The notes under the pieces: generated by a model
The model's input: only the letters and a program-made list of their open reading frames with translations
The model's database searches: none
What the model was told of the DNA's origin: nothing
Shown here: positions 51,934 to 64,000 of the stretch, one piece after another
Layout of the letters: each line of letters opens with the position of its first letter
Position numbering within the stretch: position 1 is the first letter of the stretch
Source of the DNA: Bacteroidota bacterium
Lineage (GTDB): Bacteria; Bacteroidota; Bacteroidia; Bacteroidales; FEN-979
Length of the DNA: 64,000 bases
Direction of reading: 5' to 3'
Assembly (NCBI GenBank): GCA_026391835.1
Contig: JAPLDF010000075.1
Span: forward strand, 1 to 64,000
Translations under genes and position numbers: made by a program

Positions 51934-53919
51934 ATGAAAAAGTTCGTTTACATATTGATTGTTTTAAATGTTGGTTGCTTCCCGGGGTTTAGCCAGAAAC
52001 CAACTACGCTCAATGATTTCTACAAATCCGAGTGGTCCAATTTTAAAGATTATATCAAAATTAGAAATGGAAGAGGAAACACCGATACCACTTTCAACAT
52101 TACCTTTTATTATTTAAAAGCGGATGTATCCCTTGATGCAAATGCTAAATATATCCGGGGAAACCTGCTTTGCAAATTTAAATCCAGTGTCAATAACCTG
52201 GTCAGGATTGTTTTGAGCCTGCAGGATGATCTGCATGTTGACAGTATTACCGGGAATTCTTCAACCTATTCAATATCCGGTGACAGCATTAACATCATGC
52301 TTGACAGAACTTACAGCAATGGCGAGGCTGCTGAAATTCGGATCTGGTACCAGGGAGTTCCTCAACTGGCAGGTGGTTACAAAGGTTTAAGGTACGAAAC
52401 CCATCACAACGGGGAACCGGTGATTGCCACGCTGTCAACCCCCTACCTCGCGCATTACTGGTATCCTTGCAAAGACGGGCCCGAAGACAAGGCTGATTCG
52501 GTTTACCTTGATATTACGGTTCCTGATACCGTTATAAATGGTAATAAGGCAATTGCGGTTTCTAACGGATTGCTGGAAAATGTAACAACTGTAAATAACA
52601 AAGTTACTTATTGCTGGCGGCACAGGTACCCGATAGTTACATATTATGTAATGATGGCCATCTCAAATTATTCACATTTTCAGCAATCGTTCATTGGCCC
52701 GGATGGTGAATCCTTTCCTATAGACTATTTTGTTTTCGGGGAACATGATTCAATATCAAGGTTAGGTGTTTCTGAAATGCCTGATGTTATGCAATTCTAT
52801 TCAAATCTTTTTGGGAAATATCCTTTTTGGAAAGAAAAATACGCGATGTCGGAACTGGGTTACTATGGAGCGATAGAAAATCAAACCAACACCATTACCA
52901 ACAGTATGGATATTTCATGGTTTTATGTATCAGCGCACGAGTTGTCGCATATGTGGTTTGGTGACATGATTACCTGTGCTGACTGGCATCATGCCTGGAT
53001 GAATGAAGGCTTTGCAACATATGCCGAAGCTTTATGGACAGAACATAAAAACGGGATGGCGGCGTATCATTCTTATTTAAACTCCACAGCAGCTTTTATG
53101 GGAGGCACGTTATACCTGCAAAACGACCTTGATACCTTCAATATTTTCCAGGAAATAGTATATTCCAAAGGTGCCTGGGTATTGCATATGCTGAGAGGTG
53201 TTCTGGGTGATCAGACTTTTTTCAATTGCCTTAAATCGTATGCAGGCAGCCCGGGATTTATGTATAAAAATGCTTCAACAGAAGATTTCAGGCACCTGGC
53301 AGAAAATACCAGCGGGAAGAATCTCGCTGCGTTCTTTAATCAGTGGGTATACGATGCATACTATCCAATGTATCATTTTAACTACAAACAGGATAGCTCA
53401 AGCAAGGTATTGACACTTCACATATTCCAGGCCCAGGCCAGCATCAGCAACTGGCGTGAGGTGTTCGAAATGCCACTTCAGGTTAAGATTACCGATGTTA
53501 ATGGGAATGACACAATTATAACGGTTCAGAACAACCAAAAAAACCAGGAATACCAGTTTCGGTTGACAGGGTATGTAAACCATGACTATACTTCTGTCGT
53601 TATCGATCCTGATAAATGGGTGATCCGCAAGACATATTTCAAACCAAATCTTCCGGTAGGCCTTCCGGAGGTGCCTGATGAAAGGATGGCATTTAATTTA
53701 TATCCTGACCCTGCATCAGATCAACTTAACATTGGGTTTCCGCAACCGGTCAAAAAGGCCGCTTTTAAAATATTCAATCAATTCGGTGAACTTGTAAACA
53801 GCGGATTTTTAAAATCAACAGTATCCAGTATTTCGATAAATAATTTGAGCAGGGGATTGTATTTTATTGTAGTTGATGACGGGAAAACTCAGCATTCCGA
53901 AAAGTTTATGAAACTTTAG
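51934..53919 (+). CDS. Secreted M1 family aminopeptidase with T9SS sorting domain
   Basis: 661 residues from ATG 51934, which starts a signal peptide (MKKFVYILIVLNVGCFPGFS); the frame upstream to 51868 overlaps the promoter. GAIEN (usual GAMEN) binds the substrate N-terminus; HELSH with the third ligand in NEGFATY forms the zinc site, spaced as in the family. The last 75 residues (YPDPASDQLNIGFPQ...GLYFIVVDDG) are a type A T9SS C-terminal sorting domain. Likely released or attached at the cell surface to digest peptides. Confidence 0.93.
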   Translation: MKKFVYILIVLNVGCFPGFSQKPTTLNDFYKSEWSNFKDYIKIRNGRGNTDTTFNITFYYLKADVSLDANAKYIRGNLLCKFKSSVNNLVRIVLSLQDDLHVDSITGNSSTYSISGDSINIMLDRTYSNGEAAEIRIWYQGVPQLAGGYKGLRYETHHNGEPVIATLSTPYLAHYWYPCKDGPEDKADSVYLDITVPDTVINGNKAIAVSNGLLENVTTVNNKVTYCWRHRYPIVTYYVMMAISNYSHFQQSFIGPDGESFPIDYFVFGEHDSISRLGVSEMPDVMQFYSNLFGKYPFWKEKYAMSELGYYGAIENQTNTITNSMDISWFYVSAHELSHMWFGDMITCADWHHAWMNEGFATYAEALWTEHKNGMAAYHSYLNSTAAFMGGTLYLQNDLDTFNIFQEIVYSKGAWVLHMLRGVLGDQTFFNCLKSYAGSPGFMYKNASTEDFRHLAENTSGKNLAAFFNQWVYDAYYPMYHFNYKQDSSSKVLTLHIFQAQASISNWREVFEMPLQVKITDVNGNDTIITVQNNQKNQEYQFRLTGYVNHDYTSVVIDPDKWVIRKTYFKPNLPVGLPEVPDERMAFNLYPDPASDQLNIGFPQPVKKAAFKIFNQFGELVNSGFLKSTVSSISINNLSRGLYFIVVDDGKTQHSEKFMKL

Positions 53920-54012
53920 GAGGTCATTTTGGTATGTGATACTTTGAATTGTTGACCGGACCAGGAAAGATTTCTAAAATCAAGGCTTGATGTTACCTTC
54001 GGCAAATATTAA

Positions 54013-54020
54013 TAAATTTG
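54013..54020 (+). promoter_or_regulatory. Promoter -7 element TAAATTTG for the methyltransferase gene
   Basis: TAAATTTGCC lies 17 nt before the ATG at 54037; a TTG at 53987-53989 is 23 nt upstream. Confidence 0.45.
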
Positions 54021-54036
54021 CCCTATAATTTTTTTA

Positions 54037-54774
54037 ATGAACCTTTCCATTTTTCAGATAGTCAATTACCTGTTAATCCTCATCCTCCTTGTACTATTTA
54101 TAAGGTATTTGTGGATTCAGTATGTGGTTCGTGATGATGAGCCTGTTCAATGGCAGTATGCAGTAAAGAACAAGCTCATTCCATCCCCGCTTAAAAGGAT
54201 TAAGCGCGGATACCCGGATAAAGTTCGGTTTTTCAACTGGTGGTTCCAGGTGGAAAGACTGAAAAACGAGCATGTTCCCGGTGTGTTTGTCGAGCTGGGT
54301 GTATACAAAGGTGACAGCGCCAGGGTTATTCATCACCTTGATCAGGACCGTCATTTCCACCTGTTCGATACCTTTTCGGGTTTTACAGCCGGAGACCTGC
54401 GTGTTGAAACCGGAGAGGCGGCAACCTATACACCTGATCATTTTGCCGACACCAGTATCCCGTCGGTTCTGAAGAGAATCGGGGGCAATCACAATATAAT
54501 CATCCACCAGGGGTATTTCCCGGAAAGTGCGCACGATTTCCGTGAGCAGGTATCACTGGTAAATATGGATGCAGATCTTTACAATCCGACAAGGGCCGGA
54601 CTTGAGTTCTTCTATCCTTTGCTAGCTCCCGGGGGAGTCATGATGGTACACGATTACAATTACAGGTGGCCGGGGATTATCAAGGCTGTGGATGATTTCG
54701 TGAAGACAATCCCGGAGAACCCGGTCCTCCTGCCGGATGTGAACGGAACTATGATGATTATCAGGAACAAATAA
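54037..54774 (+). CDS. TylF/MycF-type methyltransferase with N-terminal membrane anchor
   Basis: 245 residues. A single N-terminal helix (IVNYLLILILLVLFIRYLW) precedes the SAM-dependent domain with VPGVFVELGVYKGDSARVI (SAM site), HLFDTFSGF and VNMDADLYNPTRAGLEFFYPLL, where acidic residues would bind metal as in TylF/MycF sugar O-methyltransferases. GGVMMVHDYNY follows. The likely substrate is a sugar of a surface glycan. It stands alone before the ribosomal cluster. Confidence 0.82.
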   Translation: MNLSIFQIVNYLLILILLVLFIRYLWIQYVVRDDEPVQWQYAVKNKLIPSPLKRIKRGYPDKVRFFNWWFQVERLKNEHVPGVFVELGVYKGDSARVIHHLDQDRHFHLFDTFSGFTAGDLRVETGEAATYTPDHFADTSIPSVLKRIGGNHNIIIHQGYFPESAHDFREQVSLVNMDADLYNPTRAGLEFFYPLLAPGGVMMVHDYNYRWPGIIKAVDDFVKTIPENPVLLPDVNGTMMIIRNK

Positions 54775-54800
54775 TTTTTTAACTTTTTTTCACAATTTCC

Positions 54801-54830
54801 TTGTTCGGTCCAAAATAAGTTGTACTTTTG
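54801..54830 (+). promoter_or_regulatory. Distal rpsL promoter (TTG-N19-TACTTTTG)
   Basis: TTG at 54801-54803 and TACTTTTG at 54823-54830 with 19-nt spacing give a near-consensus Bacteroidota promoter. It starts about 315 nt before the rpsL ATG. Confidence 0.75.
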
Positions 54831-54870
54831 CACCCTCGAAAACCATATTATGTTTTCGATTGAATTACAA

Positions 54871-55043
54871 GCCGGAAACGGCAAGGAAACCTGATAAAGT
54901 GAAACAACTATAGGTTTCAATCGCAGTCTAACCGATGACTGCGGTAGAAAGTTTCGCGAATTTCAATCCTTCCTTATTATTTCCAGCCCACTAATTCAGG
55001 GATTATTCCCGCTGTTTGGAACGGTTTCAAACCTGTCCGGACA
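54871..55043 (+). ncRNA. Candidate structured leader RNA or small RNA
   Basis: In order: GCCG-GAAA-CGGC (54871-54882, a GNRA-type tetraloop hairpin); GAAACCT (54886-54892) pairing with AGGTTTC (54912-54918), with a second GAAAC at 54901-54905 that could compete; CGCAGTC (54922-54928) with GACTGCG (54937-54943), 8-nt loop; GTTTG (55014-55018) with CAAAC (55028-55032), or GGTTT-AAACC (55023-55033); and the palindrome TGTCCGGACA (55034-55043). Competing GAAAC and GTTTC copies could allow alternative folds. It may be an autogenous ribosomal leader. I do not recognise a named family. Confidence 0.4.
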
Positions 55044-55066
55044 AATAAAGTTTTTATCGTAAAATG

Positions 55067-55096
55067 TTGGTAGTGTAAAATTAATTTGTACTTTTG
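55067..55096 (+). promoter_or_regulatory. Proximal rpsL promoter (TTG-N19-TACTTTTG)
   Basis: TTG at 55067-55069 and TACTTTTG at 55089-55096, again 19 nt apart and followed by CAC as in the distal promoter. The ATG follows after 49 nt. Confidence 0.75.
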
Positions 55097-55145
55097 CACT
55101 CCCGTTTTGGGGAAATTGACACTAAAGTTTTATAAAACCATTGAT

Positions 55146-55519
55146 ATGCCTACGATTTCGCAACTGGTTCGTAAAGGAAGAAAAAAATTAGTAGATAAAA
55201 GTAAGTCTCCTGCTTTGGATTCCTGTCCGCAGCGCCGTGGCGTTTGCGTTCGTGTTTATACCACGACGCCCCAAATTCGGCCATGCGCAAGGTAGCCAGG
55301 GTTCGGCTCACCAACGGTAAGGAAGTAAATGCCTATATCCCCGGTGAAGGTCACAACCTGCAGGAACATTCAATTGTAATGATCCGCGGCGGTCGTGTGA
55401 AAGACCTTCCAGGAGTTCGTTACCATATTATCCGTGGTGCCCTTGATACTTCCGGTGTGGAAGGTCGCAAGCAACGCAGAAGTAAATATGGTGCCAAGCG
55501 TCCAAAGGAAAAGAAATAA
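55146..55519 (+). pseudogene. rpsL: Ribosomal protein S12 gene, interrupted by a 7-nt deletion frameshift
   Basis: The first 42 codons ([14 protein letters not shown]... to VRVYTTTP, 55146-55271) are normal S12 and then run out of frame to a stop soon after. The correct sequence resumes at 55274 in another frame ([18 protein letters not shown]...), ending AKRPKEKK at 55519. The universal PKKPN segment should read nine bases between P42 and the Asn codon; only CA is present, so seven bases are missing (CCC-AAA-AAG-CCA-AAT would become CCCCAAAT by losing AAAAAGC). Restored length would be 126 residues, which is normal. S12 is essential for decoding, so this is either an assembly error or a dead copy; no second copy is in the window. 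Confidence 0.9.
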
Positions 55520-55525
55520 TTGAGA

Positions 55526-55585
55526 TTGGCGGGTTTAACCCACACGGATAAAAAAGATTGAAAGAAGCGGGGTAAAACCCGCCAA
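55526..55585. repeat. 11-bp inverted repeat between rpsL and rpsG
   Basis: TTGGCGGGTTT (55526-55536) is exactly inverted at 55575-55585 (AAACCCGCCAA), with a 38-nt spacer. The pair would form a hairpin in the polycistronic mRNA just before rpsG. Confidence 0.75.
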
Positions 55586-55600
55586 GACAAAACAAATACC

Positions 55601-56068
55601 ATGAGAAAGTCAAAACCGAAAAAAAGACCCATTCTTCCCGATCCAAGGTTTAGTGATACCCTGGTCACAAAATTTGTGAACAATGTCATGATGGCAGGAA
55701 AGAAAAATATTGCCTACGAAGTCTTTTATGAAGCCATCGACACGGTCTCAGAAAAGACTAAGGAAGATGGCCTTGAGGTATTCAAAAAGGCACTTGCCAA
55801 TGTCACTCCTTCCGTTGAGGTCAGGAGTCGTCGTATCGGGGGTGCTACTTTCCAGATCCCCTCAGAAATCCGTCCGGGCAGGAAAAGTTCCATTGGCATG
55901 AAATCGCTTGTGAACTATGCCCGCAGGCGTCATGAAAAAAGTTTTGGTCAGAAACTGGCGGCTGAAATTATGGCTGCTTACAAAGAAGAAGGAGCCGCTT
56001 ACAAACGTAAAGAAGATACACACAGGATGGCTGAAGCCAACAAGGCGTTCTCCCACTTCCGTTTCTAA
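55601..56068 (+). CDS. rpsG: Ribosomal protein S7
   Basis: 155 residues. Primary 16S rRNA-binding protein that nucleates the 30S head. [35 protein letters not shown] and [16 protein letters not shown] are conserved. The C-terminal [27 protein letters not shown] fits the family. Intact. Confidence 0.97.
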
Positions 56069-56082
56069 CAATAAAAATGTAA

Positions 56083-56102
56083 GGACATGGCATGCCATGT
56101 CC
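56083..56102. repeat. 20-bp perfect palindrome between rpsG and fusA
   Basis: GGACATGGCA followed by its exact reverse complement, no loop, 18 nt before the fusA ATG. In DNA it is a perfect palindrome; in RNA it would form a short hairpin. It may be a REP-like element. Confidence 0.85.
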
Positions 56103-56120
56103 CAACGATCAAAAGACAAA

Positions 56121-58226
56121 ATGACCGGTAAATTAGAAAATACAAGAAACATTGGCATAATGGCGCACATCGACGCGGGTAAAACCACGACGACGGAGCG
56201 TATCTTGTATTATACCGGCAGCAACTATAAATTGGGAGAGGTTCATGATGGTACTGCCACCATGGACTGGATGGTTCAGGAACAGGAGCGCGGAATTACG
56301 ATAACCTCTGCTGCAACAACTGTTTACTGGGATTACAGGAATGAAAATTACCGGATTAATCTCATTGATACGCCAGGACATGTTGACTTCACAGTAGAAG
56401 TTGAGCGTTCACTTCGCGTACTCGATGGAGCTGTTGCTATTTTCTGTGCAGTTGGTGGTGTAGAGCCCCAGAGCGAAACAGTATGGAGACAGGCTAATAA
56501 ATACAATGTACCGCGCATCAGTTACATCAACAAGATGGACCGTACCGGTGCTGATTTTATGCATGTTGTTGATCAAATCAGTGACAAACTTGGTGCAATT
56601 CCTGTTGTTATCCAGTTGCCAATTGGTGCTGAAGAGGATTTTGCCGGTGTTGTCGATCTGATTACAAATAAAGCTTACGGTTGGGATGAAGCATCTCTCG
56701 GTCGGGAATATTTTGAGATTCCTCTTCCCGGTGAGATGAAAGACATGGTGCACGAGGCGAGACTGAAACTCATTGAAGGCGTTGCCGAAGAGAGTGATGA
56801 ACTGCTGCACAAATTCATGCAGGATCCCAATTCAATTACTGAAGATGAGATCATTGCAGAGATACGCAAAGCTACCATCGCAGGAAAGATCACCCCGGTA
56901 ATTTGCGGAGCCTCCTTTAAAAACAAAGGTGTGCAACTGCTGATCGATGCAGTTATTAAATTCCTGCCTTCTCCGTATGATATGCCTGCCGTGTTGGGTA
57001 TGAATCCGTTTACCGAAAAGGAAGAGGTTCGCCATCCTGATCCCAACGAACCGTTTACTGCCTACGCTTTTAAAATTGCAACTGACCCATTTGTTGGCAG
57101 AATTGCTTTTTTCCGTGTTTATTCCGGAAAACTTGAAGCAGGTGAAGTGGTACTGAATACCCGTACAGATAAGAAAGAACGTTTACTCCGCATCATGCAA
57201 ATGCATGCCAACAAGCAAAATCCTCTCAAGCATATCGAGGCCGGGGAAATTGCAGCTGCAGTTGGTTTTAAGGATATCCGCACCGGTGACACATTGTGTG
57301 ACCTTAAACATCCTCTTGTCCTGGAGACGATGGTTTTTCCTGAGCCAGTGATCAATATGGCGGTTGAACCAAAGACACAGGACGATCTTGAAAAACTTGC
57401 TGTTGCCTTACATAAGCTTGCAGAAGAAGATCCTACGTTCCAGGTGAGGGTTGATGATGAAACCGGTCAGACGCTGATCAGTGGAATGGGTGAATTGCAC
57501 CTGGATATCATTGCCGACCGCATGCGTCGCGAATTCAATATTGAAGTGAACCGTGGGAATCCGCAAGTTGCTTATAAAGAGGCTATTATCAACACGGTGA
57601 TGCACCATGAAGTTTACAAGAAACAGACTGGTGGCAAAGGCCGTTTTGCAGATCTTGTGATCGAAGTAGGACCTGCAGATGCTGGTTTCAAAGGATTGCA
57701 GTTTATCAATGAGATCAAAGGCGGCAATATTCCACGCGAATTTATTCCATCCATCGAAAAGGGTTTGAAAGCGGCGATGACCAATGGTCCGATCGTTGGA
57801 TTCCCTATGGAAAGCGTCAAAGTACGTTTGATCGATGGTTCTTATCATAGTGTCGATTCTGACGCACTTTCATTCCAGGTTGCTGCAGGTTTTGCTTTCA
57901 AGGAAGCGAGTAAGAAAGCCAAGGTGGTGATCATGGAACCAATTATGAAATTTGAAATTATTACACCCAGCGAATATATGGGTGAAGTAACCGGTGATAT
58001 TACAAAACGCCGCGGTCAGGTTGAAGAGGTGGAATCCCGCATCGGAAACCAGGTAATCCGTGGCAGGGTGCCATTGGCAGAAATGTTCGGTTATGTGACA
58101 ACTTTGCGCAGTCTTTCTTCCGGCAGAGCTACGGAAATGCTGGAATTTTATAAATATGATATTACGCCGAAAGAGATACAGGACGAAGTATTATATAAAA
58201 TCCGGGGATATGTTCCCGCATATTAA
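56121..58226 (+). CDS. fusA: Elongation factor G
   Basis: 701 residues from ATG 56121 ([22 protein letters not shown]). The frame is open 68 codons further upstream, but that part overlaps rpsG in another frame and is not EF-G. G1 [11 protein letters not shown]2 [12 protein letters not shown]3 DTPGHVDF and G4 NKMDR are present, then domains II-V. Drives ribosomal translocation. Confidence 0.97.
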
Positions 58227-58234
58227 ATTTATAT

Positions 58235-58540
58235 ATGAGCCAGAGAATTAGAATTAAACTGAAGTCTTACGATTACAACCTGGTTGACAAGTCAGCCGAA
58301 AAGATCGTAAAAACCGTAAAGGCTACGGGTGCTGTTGTCAGCGGACCGATTCCTTTGCCAACGGACAAAAAGATCTTCACTGTGCTGCGTTCAACCTTCG
58401 TGAACAAAAAGTCACGGGAACAGTTTCAACTATGCACTTACAAACGGTTGCTCGACATCTACAGCACGACCTCGAAGACAATCGATGCACTGATGAAACT
58501 TGAACTTCCAAGTGGTGTGGAAGTTGAAATTAAGGTTTGA
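58235..58540 (+). CDS. rpsJ: Ribosomal protein S10
   Basis: 101 residues; first gene of the S10 group, 8 nt after fus[32 protein letters not shown] and the C-terminal [11 protein letters not shown] are conserved. Part of the 30S head; length normal. Confidence 0.97.
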
Positions 58541-58584
58541 GTGTAATTAGACAAGTAAAGTTAAAAACGTAAGAAACGTAAGAA

Positions 58585-59214
58585 ATGTCTGGATTAATAG
58601 GTAAAAAAATCGGAATGACCAGTATCTACGATGCAAACGGGAGAAATATCCCCTGCACCGTGATCGAGGCTGGCCCTTGTGTCGTGACACAAGTCCGGTT
58701 AAAGGAAAAAGACGGATACGAAGCCATCCAGCTTGCTTTCGATGAAAAGAAAGAGAAGCATACGACCAAAGCTGAAATGGGACACTTTGCCAAAGCCGGG
58801 ATCACTCCCAAAAAGGTGTTGGCCGAATTCACCCGTTTTGAAGTGGATCACCAGAAACAGTTTGGTGATATCGTTCAGGTTGACATTTTCGTTGAAGGTG
58901 AATTAATCGATGTGGTTGGGATATCCAAGGGTAAAGGTTTCCAGGGAGTTGTAAAACGTCACCATTTTGCAGGTGTCGGTGAAGCAACCCACGGACAACA
59001 TAACCGGTTGAGAGCTCCTGGTTCGGTTGGCGCATCATCATGGCCTTCAAGGGTTATGAAGGGTCTCCGCATGGCCGGCCGCATGGGTGGCGACCGCGTG
59101 AAGGTTGTAAACCTCCAGGTGTTAAAGATTATTCTCGAGAAAAACCTGATATTGGTAAAAGGCGCAGTTCCGGGACACAATGGTTCATATGTAAAGATTG
59201 AGCGATGGAAGTAG
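58585..59214 (+). CDS. rplC: Ribosomal protein L3
   Basis: 209 residues. Starts [33 protein letters not shown] and the [15 protein letters not shown] loop reach toward the peptidyl transferase centre. Its last 10 nt overlap rplD. Confidence 0.97.
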
Positions 59215-59834
59215 TAGTATATAATATAAAAGGAACAGAGACAGCCAACAAGGTTGTTCTGGACGATTCGATCTTCGGGATTGAACCCAATGACCATGCT
59301 ATTTATTTGGATGTGAAGCAATACATGGCAAATCAGCGTCAGGGGACACACGATACACTGGAAAAGTCAACAATTTCAGGAAGTACCCGCAAACTTCATA
59401 AGCAAAAAGGTACCGGAGGTTCCCGTAAAGGGAGTATCAAAAGCCCGCTGTTCAGAGGTGGAGCCCGCGTTTTCGGACCTCATCCCCGCGATTACAGTTT
59501 TAAACTTAACAAAAAACTGAAACGGTTGGCACGTAAGTCTGCCTTGAGTTATAAGTTGAAAGACAATCACCTGACCATCCTGGAAGATTTTACGTTTGAC
59601 ACCCCCAAAACGAAGAATTTCACCGAACTGCTGAAGAACCTTCAGCTGACCGGAAAAAAGACTTTGCTTGTGATCGCTAAGTTTGAAGAAAACGTGTTGT
59701 TGTCTTCAAGAAATCTGAAACGGGTGAAAGTTGTAAACGCTGCAGATCTGAACACATATGAAATACTTGATGCGACGCAGCTGCTTATCACTGCCGGTTC
59801 CATCAAGGAAATTGAAAAAATACATCAGAATTAA
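59205..59834 (+). CDS. rplD: Ribosomal protein L4
   Basis: 209 residues. [32 protein letters not shown] and [15 protein letters not shown] form the extended loop lining the exit tunnel. In E. coli L4 also represses its own operon; no such leader is visible here. ATG overlaps rplC. Confidence 0.97.
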
Positions 59835-59855
59835 ACCGATTAATTCGATATACCA

Positions 59856-60146
59856 ATGACAGTTATTATTAAACCGATCATAACCGAGAAGATGACGCAG
59901 TTGGGCGAGAAGCTCAACCGTTATGGGTTCATGGTTGACCGGAAGGCAAACAAGCTTCAGATCACGAAGGCCATTAAAGACCTCTATGGAGTGGATGTTA
60001 CTTCTGTCAACACGATGGTGTTCTCCGGTAAAAACAAGTCGCGCTTTACGAAGAGCGGTGTAATCTCAGGAAGAACCAGTACATATAAGAAAGCCATTAT
60101 TACCTTGGCTAAAGGCGAAACAATTGATTTTTACAGCAATATTTAA
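59856..60146 (+). CDS. rplW: Ribosomal protein L23
   Basis: 96 residues. Binds 23S rRNA at the tunnel exit and helps dock SRP and trigger factor. IIKPIITEKMTQL and FMVDRKANKLQITKAIKDLYGVDV are conserved. 4 nt before rplB. Confidence 0.96.
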   Translation: MTVIIKPIITEKMTQLGEKLNRYGFMVDRKANKLQITKAIKDLYGVDVTSVNTMVFSGKNKSRFTKSGVISGRTSTYKKAIITLAKGETIDFYSNI

Positions 60147-60150
60147 ATAA

Positions 60151-60975
60151 ATGGCGCTTAAGAAATATAAACCGACAACACCCGGTCAGCGGTTTAAAGT
60201 AATCAGTACTTATGATGAAATAACTGCGGACGTTCCCGAGAAGAGCCTGTTGGCTCCGTCGAAAAGATCCGGTGGCAGAAACAACGAAGGGAGAATGACC
60301 ATGCGTTACCTTGGTGGTGGTCATAAACAGATGTACAGAATAATTGACTTCAAGCGGGACAAGGAGAATATTCCTGCTGTAGTAAAAACCATCGAGTATG
60401 ATCCGAACAGGACATCACGCATTGCCCTGGTGGTATATGCAGATGGGGAAAAAAGATACATCGTAGCCCCTCATGGATTAAAAGTAGGTCAGACAATTCT
60501 GGCAGGAAAAGGTGTAGCTCCGGAAATCGGAAATACATTATACCTCAGCGAAGTGCCTTTTGGAACTGTAATTCATAATGTTGAGTTACGTCCGGGTCAG
60601 GGTGCAAAAATGGTTCGCAGTGCCGGCGCACATGCTCAGCTGATGTCGCGTGATGGTAAGTTTGCCATTCTGAAGATGCCCTCTGGTGAAACCCGCATGA
60701 TCCTTCAGACTTGTAAGGCTACAATTGGTATGGTGTCGAACATTGACCACAGCCTTGAGTCGTATGGTAAGGCAGGTCGTACCCGCTGGCTGGGACGCCG
60801 TCCAAGAAACCGTGGTGTTACCATGAACCCTGTTGACCATCCGATGGGCGGGGGAGAAGGTAAGGCTTCCGGTGGACAGCCACGCTCACGCAAGGGTGTT
60901 CCTTCAAAGGGTTATAAGACACGTGCCCGTAAAAATCAGTCGAATAAGTACATCATTGAACGCAGGAAGAAGTAA
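60151..60975 (+). CDS. rplB: Ribosomal protein L2
   Basis: 274 residues. [15 protein letters not shown] start; [23 protein letters not shown]-terminal [17 protein letters not shown] with the histidine near the peptidyl transferase centre. Length and ends are normal. Confidence 0.97.
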
Positions 60976-60993
60976 TCGATAATACATCAGACT

Positions 60994-61272
60994 ATGAGCC
61001 GATCGCTTAAAAAAGGTCCGTATATCCACTATAAGCTGGAAAAGAAAGTAACGGAACTTCTGGAATCCAAGAAAAAGACCGTCATTAAAACCTGGTCGCG
61101 TGGATCCATGATCTCTCCCGATTTTGTTGGGCAGACCATTGCCGTGCACAATGGCAATAAATTTATCCCGGTCTATGTTACCGAGAATATGGTTGGCCAT
61201 AAGTTGGGCGAATTTGCACCCACCCGGATTTTCCGCGGTCATGCAGGTAATAAAGATAAAGGAAAGAAATAA
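60994..61272 (+). CDS. rpsS: Ribosomal protein S19
   Basis: 92 residues. [41 protein letters not shown] and [11 protein letters not shown] are invariant family segments. Forms a head complex with S13. Confidence 0.97.
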
Positions 61273-61292
61273 CCTCTTAATTAAGATAGATT

Positions 61293-61736
61293 ATGGGAGT
61301 TAGAACCCGCACCAGAGCCGAGAATCGTAAAGAGGCTAAAAAGAATGTGGCTTTTGCCAAACTGAATAATTGCCCGACGTCACCGCGTAAAATGCGTTTG
61401 ATTGCTGACCTGATCAGGGGAAAAAGGGTAGAGCTTGCTTTGCACATCCTGAAGAACAATGCAAAACAACCTTCAGAGCGTTTACGCAAATTGTTATTGT
61501 CGGCGATTGCAAACTGGCAGACAAAAAATGAAGGCCTGCGTATTGAGGACAGTGACCTGATCGTTAAGGAAGTTTTTGTTGACAGTGGCAGGCAGCTCAA
61601 GCGGTTGTTGACCGCCCCCCAGGGACGGGCCCACAGGATCAGGAAACGTTCAAACCACGTGACTATTCTTCTTGACAGCCGGAATAAACCGGAAGTTGAG
61701 GTCGAGGAAACTGAAGAAGTTGAAAATAAGAAGTAA
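61293..61736 (+). CDS. rplV: Ribosomal protein L22 with acidic C-terminal tail
   Basis: 147 residues, longer than the 110-residue core. NCPTSPRKMRLIADLIRGKRV and the tunnel hairpin GRQLKRLLTAPQGRAHRIRKRSNH are conserved. The extra C-terminus ends EVEVEETEEVENKK, a strongly acidic tail. Confidence 0.95.
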   Translation: MGVRTRTRAENRKEAKKNVAFAKLNNCPTSPRKMRLIADLIRGKRVELALHILKNNAKQPSERLRKLLLSAIANWQTKNEGLRIEDSDLIVKEVFVDSGRQLKRLLTAPQGRAHRIRKRSNHVTILLDSRNKPEVEVEETEEVENKK

Positions 61737-61772
61737 TAAAAGTTAATAAGCAATAATTAAAAGTAAGTTTTA

Positions 61773-62612
61773 ATGGGACAAAAGACCAATCCGATTGCTA
61801 ACAGGTTAGGCATCATCCGCGGCTGGGATTCAAACTGGTTCGGCGGGAAGAATTTTGAGCCCAAGCTGGTCGAGGACGATAAAATTCGTAAGTATTTGAA
61901 TGCCCGTCTGGCCAAGGCTGGTATTGCGAAAATAGTCATTGAACGTACCTTGAAGCTTGTAACTGTTACCATTCACACCGCACGACCGGGTATTATTATC
62001 GGAAAAGGTGGCCAGGAAGTTGACAAATTGAAGGAGGAGTTGAAAAAGATCACCAAGAAGGAGATCCAGATCAACATTTCTGAAATCAAACGTCCGGAAA
62101 TCGATGCAGTTATTGTGGGCAATACGGTAGCAAGCCAGATTGAAGGCCGCATATCTTACCGTCGTGCGATCAAAACTTCCATTGCCTCAGCAATGAGGAT
62201 CGGTGCCGAAGGTATTAAAATCATGATTTCAGGTCGCGTCGGTGGTGCTGAAATGGCACGTCGCGAACAATATAAGGAAGGGCGAATTCCTCTTCATACA
62301 TTCCGCGCTGACATTGATTATGCCACGGCCGAAGCCCATACAACCTATGGTATTATTGGTATCAAGGTATGGATTTGCAAAGGTGACATTTATGGTCGTC
62401 CTGACCTGGTGCCCGATGCATCTGCAACCAAAGTAAAGCCTGCACAACATCGTGGCGGCGATCGTCCGGGTGACCGGGATCGTGGACGCGGCGATCGTGG
62501 CGGTGACAGAGGTGGAGATCGTGGCGGAGATCGTGGCGGCGACAGAAGCAATGACCGTCGCGGTGATCGTGGCCCTGCCAGAGATGCCGGAAGTTCACGC
62601 GGAAGAAGATAA
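61773..62612 (+). CDS. rpsC: Ribosomal protein S3 with an RGD-rich C-terminal extension
   Basis: 279 residues; the conserved part ends near 219. [20 protein letters not shown], the KH-domain [10 protein letters not shown] and [12 protein letters not shown] are standard. The last 50-60 residues are repeats of GDRG with Arg, Gly and Asp (for example [17 protein letters not shown]), ending SSRGRR. Such a tail would be disordered and could bind RNA; it is encoded in frame with no break. Confidence 0.94.
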
Positions 62613-62646
62613 TTGATAGCAACGTAACCAAAAATATAATTGAATA

Positions 62647-63075
62647 ATGTTACAGCCAAAGAAAACAAAATACAGAAAACAGCAGAAAGGAAAGATGAAG
62701 GGCAATGCCCAGCGTGGTCATCAACTCGCTTTTGGCTCATTCGGTATCAAGACACTGGAAGAAGCATGGATCACTGGCCGTCAGATTGAAGCAGCCCGTC
62801 AGGCGATCACCCGTCATATGAAACGTGAAGGTCAGCTTTGGATCCGCATTTTCCCGGATAAACCGGTCACCAAAAAACCTGCTGAAGTCCGTATGGGTAA
62901 AGGAAAGGGAGCTCCCGAATATTTCGTAGCCCGTATCAATCCAGGCAGGATTCTCTTTGAAATCGAAGGCGTACCTATGGTTATCGCGAAGGAAGCTCTT
63001 CGCCTTGGAGCCCAGAAACTCCCTGTGCAAACCAAAACAGTTATGCGTAAGGATTACGTAGAAGAAGCAATATAG
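62647..63075 (+). CDS. rplP: Ribosomal protein L16
   Basis: 142 residues. [43 protein letters not shown] and [14 protein letters not shown] are invariant. Helps position tRNA in the A site. Confidence 0.97.
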
Positions 63076-63123
63076 TGAGATGTACGGGTGATTCATAGAA
63101 TTTCCCAACAACAAAAAAGAAAA

Positions 63124-63345
63124 ATGGAACAGAAAGTTATCAGAGAATTAACATCGGCTGAAATCCTGGAGAGGATGGATGAAGAAAAGCGTCAGCTTAC
63201 CAAACTTAAGCTCAACCATGCTGTTTCTCCATTGGAAAATCCAAATAAAATCAAGGCGTATCGTAAGACTATCGCACGTCTTGAGACGGAATTACGTCGC
63301 CGAGTGCTGAAGGGTGAAACAATCACTAAAACTGGTAAGATTTAG
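63124..63345 (+). CDS. rpmC: Ribosomal protein L29
   Basis: 73 residues from ATG 63124 ([20 protein letters not shown]). Two helices with the conserved [31 protein letters not shown]. In-frame sequence upstream to 63088 is excluded. Confidence 0.95.
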
Positions 63346-63348
63346 TAA

Positions 63349-63368
63349 AGACGCACCGCAGTGCGTCT
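63349..63368. repeat. Short palindrome between rpmC and rpsQ
   Basis: AGACGCAC, a 4-nt loop CGCA, then GTGCGTCT; it begins 4 nt after the rpmC stop. It would form a compact hairpin within the ribosomal mRNA. It has the look of a REP-like repeat. Confidence 0.75.
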
Positions 63369-63382
63369 CCAAAAGAGACAAT

Positions 63383-63640
63383 ATGGAAACGAGAAACCTC
63401 AGAAAAGAAAAAACCGGTATCGTTGTCAGCAACAAAATGGAGAAATCTGTCGTCGTTGCGGTAGAACGTAAGGTAAAGCATCCCAAATACGGAAAGTTCG
63501 TTAAGAAATCTTCCCGGTTCATGGCCCACGATGATCAGAATGAATGCAGCGAGGGTGATAAAGTGCGGATAGCAGAAACCAGGCCGCTCAGTAAAAATAA
63601 GTGTTGGAGACTTGTCGAAATCATCGAAAAGGTTAAATAG
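63383..63640 (+). CDS. rpsQ: Ribosomal protein S17
   Basis: 85 residues from ATG 63383 ([22 protein letters not shown]); the open frame upstream covers the palindrome and is not coding. [23 protein letters not shown] and [14 protein letters not shown] are conserved. Confidence 0.95.
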
Positions 63641-63642
63641 CT

Positions 63643-64000
63643 ATGATACAGCAAGAGTCAAGATTAACAGTCGCAGATAACAGCGGTGCCAAGGAAGTCC
63701 TTTGTATTAAGGTACTGGGTGGCACGCGCAAACGGTACGCCAGGGTTGGTGACCGGATCATTGTAACGGTGAAGCACGCGCTGCCTTCCGGTAACATTAA
63801 GAAGGGTACAGTGTCGAAAGCTGTTGTCGTAAGAACTAAAAAGGAGACCCGCCGTGCAGATGGTTCCTATATCAGGTTTGACGACAACGCCGTGGTGTTG
63901 CTCAACAATGCCGGTGAAATGATCGGTACCCGTATCTTTGGACCAGTTGCCAGGGAGTTACGCGAAAAACAATTCATGAAAATCGTTTCTTTAGCACCTG
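63643..64000 (+). CDS. rplN: Ribosomal protein L14, cut by the window edge
   Basis: 119 complete codons are visible from ATG 63643: [19 protein letters not shown] at the start and [20 protein letters not shown] near the end. The family is about 122 residues, so only a few codons lie beyond 64000. No stop codon is present before the edge. Confidence 0.95.

Follow-up and report, generated by a model that had tools for sequence, protein, structure and literature searches.

Does a Bacteroidales bacterium carry a broken gene for ribosomal protein S12, or is the break confined to its assembled sequence? The question arises from a 64,000-nucleotide stretch of contig JAPLDF010000075.1 (the window), in which the rpsL reading frame is interrupted at the decoding loop. 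S12 is essential and its loss should be lethal. The frameshift is present in the sequence and most likely absent from the bacterium, whose str operon in all likelihood begins with a single rpsL that is ordinary and intact. A real break would overturn the view of the S12 decoding loop as indispensable. An assembly error is ordinary, yet a useful warning for draft genomes.

The rpsL reading frames and the seven-base gap

The rpsL gene starts on the forward strand with the ATG at 55146. The zero frame encodes 42 S12 residues, the last of which is Pro42 (codon 55269–55271), and runs through 7 non-S12 residues to a TAG stop at 55293–55295, giving a 5′ piece of 55146–55295. S12 resumes at the Asn46 codon (55274–55276) in the −1 frame, which is open from 55205 to 55516 and overlaps the zero frame at 55205–55292. 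The 3′ piece (55274–55519) extends for 81 residues to the usual stop at 55517–55519. The Pfam profile PF00164 (110 positions) matches the two pieces separately, with positions 2–27 in the 5′ piece and 30–109 in the 3′ piece. The 3′ piece also aligns end to end with residues 46–126 of the solved uS12 chain 7jil_q (E = 7.7e-46). An uninterrupted frame containing the conserved decoding loop is absent from the window rpsL, which breaks after Pro42. The frames and the profile matches confirm the sequence-only reading, which had S12 intact to P42 (ending at 55271) and resuming in another frame at the Asn codon at 55274.

That reading had also claimed a net loss of 7 nucleotides at the decoding loop, and comparison with other loci bears this out. 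Both S12 halves are encoded by 108 of 112 loci, a set that counts one genome or more twice via two collections, and two of the 108 are the window itself. The linker from the Pro codon to the Asn codon is 9 bases long in 106 of the 106 non-window loci with both halves and 2 bases long at the window junction (55269–55276, forward strand). Alignment of 54675–56068 with 14 congeneric genomes places the difference in seven columns after 55270 that hold bases in 14/14 congeners and none in the window. The position of the gap inside the CCCC run is an arbitrary placement. When columns with a base in at least 8 of the 14 congeneric genomes and none in the window were counted over this alignment, the seven columns formed the sole gap longer than one base, the alignment ends excepted. 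The other columns lacking in the window are single and lie after 54965 (base in 10/14) and after 55115 (13/14). The gap site holds only the CCCC and no long homopolymer, and direct repeats of at least 8 bases were not found at the gap within 55180–55360.

The genes around the gap are those of an ordinary str operon. Intact rpsG (S7, 55601–56068, PF00177), the fusA open reading frame (EF-G, 56121–58226, named by eye) and intact rpsJ (S10, 58235–58540, PF00338) follow rpsL on the forward strand, and the order is syntenic with congeners. The downstream open frames read as S7, EF-G, S10, L3, L4 and L23, and further frames as L2, S19, L22, S3, L16, L29, S17, L14, L24, L5, S14 and S8; these names were assigned by eye, with Pfam support for S7 and S10 only. 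The earlier statement that the ribosomal neighbors are intact holds for the open frames from S7 through S8. Around rpsL, the 459-kb contig keeps the gene order of its relatives.

Among the genomes examined, the two-piece S12 is found in the source genome alone. Counting the source genome, an S12 match is present in 56 of 61 near relatives (5 have none) and in 244 of 247 genomes of a phylum sample (3 have none). The other genomes with a match at E ≤ 0.001 number 298 (55 near relatives and 243 from the phylum sample); each has exactly one match and none has S12 in two pieces. The match in one near relative (G021) is truncated where its contig begins, and one in the phylum sample (G285) is weaker. 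Three congeners without an S12 match (G002, G015, and G017) are estimated to be 93–94% complete; what matches the region in them starts at a contig end or is divided among contigs, and contig breaks probably account for the missing rpsL. Judged by S7, the best named relatives are metagenome-assembled Bacteroidales or Bacteroidetes, a list from which very near genomes may be missing, and their isolate names (LacPavin, Kiruna, AlinenLipids) suggest lakes.

Explanations for the gap

The gap is very probably an error of the assembled or consensus sequence, a judgment drawn from indirect evidence. This explanation is favored because the gap is unique among the genomes examined, the assembly holds no other copy, and neither half of the gene has decayed. 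The source assembly comprises 86 contigs and 5.35 Mb with an estimated completeness of 96.7% and contamination of 0.6%. A profile search of this genome returned one rpsL, in two pieces. No second rpsL or recognizable fragment was found in the 86 contigs, which may lack about 3% of the genome; elsewhere in the source genome, rpsL matches at the DNA level do not exceed 20 bases. Relative to 15 congeners, the 5′ piece (42 codons) has 1–17 synonymous and 0–1 nonsynonymous differing codons, and the 3′ piece (82 codons with the stop) has 24–50 synonymous and 0–3 nonsynonymous differing codons. From these counts both halves look to have been under strict protein selection until very recently, and a very recent event would give the same lack of decay; the gap is therefore either extremely young or not real. 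A pseudogene of a duplicated rpsL is unlikely: the 86 contigs contain no second intact copy, and the codon counts give no sign of relaxed selection.

The error would have arisen during assembly, plausibly because the first part of rpsL is near-identical between related species and reads or graph paths of several populations may meet there. For the 142 bases that end at 55270 the window matches one congener (G001) exactly, and beyond the gap the two stay identical as far as 55293; identity between the two over the surrounding kilobases is about 82%. The exact match to G001 ends at the gap simply owing to the gap. In 36/36 pairs of nine genomes, the window included, rpsL agrees better over its 5′ part than over its 3′ part. 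The rpsL start (55129–55293, forward strand) has a mean pairwise DNA identity of 0.893 versus 0.838 for the 3′ part when the window is left out, and DNA conservation of the rpsL start exceeds the protein's need. High 5′ identity is general among the congeners and is thus a property of the gene rather than proof of a chimera. A chimeric contig was rejected on the same 36/36 pairs, which show no window-specific change of parentage. The start of rpsL in this genus can be identical over more than 140 bases between distinct species, and draft genomes may break or err there.

A contig break falls inside a 4-kb query around rpsL in 8/18 congeners versus 4.3 expected from contig density, with a simulated P of 0.037 in a post hoc test that used rounded contig numbers. 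The genomes are G001, G002, G004, G005, G008, G009, G015, and G017; a break was called where a match ran to a contig end or was divided between contigs, and the G017 break was inferred from matches on two contigs. A codon-usage scan for frame breaks covered 480,964 bases of the source genome, counting 54001–64000 twice (in the window and in locus L125), and found two other in-gene places, both in tandem-repeat genes of the same contig. These frame switches lie at about 10276 of L145 (C86:~244276) and about 16767–17005 of L146 (C86:~270767–271005) and are probably local assembly errors in repeats. Most switches in the scan had a stop and a start nearby and were treated as presumed gene junctions. 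Sixteen listed rows had no start within 60 bases, and two of them are one place, the rpsG/fusA junction seen in the window and in L125. Thirteen rows were read by eye, with no profile, as 11 ordinary junctions and 2 frame breaks (L145 and L146), and a fourteenth row inspected is the second switch in L146. The switch at 62436 of the window coincides with low-complexity sequence in the tail of an S3 frame that is intact. The scan is blind to short genes, missed rpsL itself, and gives no measure of the small-indel rate.

Some observations speak against an error. The contig is long at 459 kb, its synteny is ordinary, and no chimera signal was found. Neither a long homopolymer nor a repeat marks the site, so it indicates no particular error mechanism.

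The gap could instead be a real minority sequence, a deletion in some cells or strains of the sampled population whose path was picked by the assembler. The lack of decay in either half fits such a very recent event, but loss of S12 is presumably lethal, so the variant would be rare and unlikely to win the consensus, and the estimated contamination is low; we consider this explanation unlikely. It is very unlikely that the deletion is fixed in the window copy and that a second, intact rpsL sits in an unassembled or unbinned part of the genome. Completeness below 100% leaves room for such a copy, but the 86 contigs hold neither copy nor fragment, each of the 298 other genomes has a single S12 match, and the broken rpsL is without decay.

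Translational recoding by a −1 shift near 55271 is highly improbable. The frames overlap at 55205–55292, and slipping back one base after the Pro codon would return the ribosome to the S12 frame, but the product would lack the two lysines of the decoding loop, which are encoded in no frame. No X-XXY-YYZ slippery heptamer occurs in the zero frame of the overlap, where the best slip sites retain 4/6 codon bases after slippage. Conservation of the kind expected of a programmed −1 frameshift is also missing, as the break recurs in none of the 298 other genomes. Excerpts of a study of Klebsiella pneumoniae rpsL (PMC4182516) associate the S12 substitutions K42R, K42N, and K42T with streptomycin resistance and P41L, K42Q, and K43E with streptomycin dependence, and these excerpts mention no deletion of both lysines. 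The dependence caused by P41L, K42Q, and K43E suggests that losing both lysines is unlikely to be neutral. A comparable rpsL case was not seen in the titles and abstract openings returned by literature searches, whose scope took in few subscription papers. A fixed, real deletion in a bacterium whose ribosomes work with an S12 lacking the lysine pair, made by an unrecognized −1 shift, is more improbable still. Least probable of all is an S12 made as two separate polypeptides from the overlapping frames: the two pieces share a strand and each matches S12, but the conserved loop is absent from both, the only starts of the 3′ frame near the junction are TTG 55244 and ATG 55283, and we know of no bacterial precedent.

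The sequence-only reading had offered an assembly error, a strain mixture, a second functional copy, and recoding. The first two remain, with the assembly error favored. The search for a second copy found none in the 86 contigs, which may lack about 3% of the genome, and recoding is disfavored for want of a heptamer and of lysine codons.

A conserved RNA element upstream of rpsL

A conserved stretch occupies 54834–54985 (forward strand) between the upstream methyltransferase gene and rpsL. Mean identity to 14 congeners is 88% over 54840–54975, and the methyltransferase gene is 67.5–74.7% identical in the 13 of 15 congeners that gave a match. The element probably forms a structured RNA. Its fold z-score is −6.3, and a hand-written five-helix structure pairs 91.9% of cells across 19 family sequences. 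Both-side changes in this structure number 22 versus 5.8 in shuffles and 2–6 in slid controls, and its covariation score is 0.166 versus 0.128. Further pair types (19 versus 20.1 in shuffles) show no excess. Helix 3 hardly varies, and the 19 sequences are relatives of one another. Helix 3 is missing from the minimum-energy fold of the window RNA, and RNAalifold recovers only helices 3 and 5 and part of helix 2, its covariation term being −0.54. Helix 4 would involve the loop of helix 3 in a pseudoknot. At helix 4 the alignment is off by one base in four of the 19 rows, which pair at 6/7 positions once shifted.

The source genome contains one copy of the RNA core. A covariance model, run with strict filters and 50 candidates scored per genome, found the element in 4/60 genomes of the order, the source included. 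One of these genomes (G041) has the element at C103:27433–27648, just upstream of its S12 match (C103:27889), and a similar core lies upstream of rpsL in several other loci, including some from other Bacteroidales. Rfam gave no match at E up to 1 for 53800–56200 and a single tRNA for the whole window.

Promoter-like sequences of the Bacteroidetes type, recognized by eye at about 54806–54835 and about 55064–55098 (forward strand), flank the element. With one before the element and one after it, the RNA and rpsL may be transcribed separately. The stretch between the element and the second promoter-like sequence is variable and contains palindromes in several congeners. Candidate roles for the element are that of a small RNA in its own right and that of an alternative str operon leader. 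This upstream structured RNA may merit more attention than the frameshift.

Comparison with known systems

A survey of ribosomal leaders (PMC7247131) names in its Table 1 the L13 and S4 leaders for Bacteroidia and no leader of S12 or S7. Control of the Escherichia coli str operon, as outlined in PMC10931766, involves S7 binding between rpsL and rpsG; the window element lies in a different place, upstream of rpsL.

The broken frame resembles programmed −1 frameshifting, as in dnaX, in having two overlapping frames of one protein. It differs from it in that the window has no slippery heptamer and a shift could not supply the missing residues. The gap also resembles the small assembly or consensus indels of draft genomes: it is private to one assembly, lies in an essential gene under constraint, and shares its contig with further in-gene frame breaks in repeats. 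It differs from them in being 7 bases long and outside any homopolymer or repeat, and a loss of this kind is not the commonest type of assembly indel.

The window shares with the uS12 genes of the str operon (rpsL-rpsG-fusA) the position of rpsL as first gene, the flanking genes, and both halves of the protein (PF00164). A further likeness is that drift from the congeners is nearly pure synonymous change. The window differs from its relatives by having 2 rather than 9 bases in the decoding loop, which produces the frameshift.
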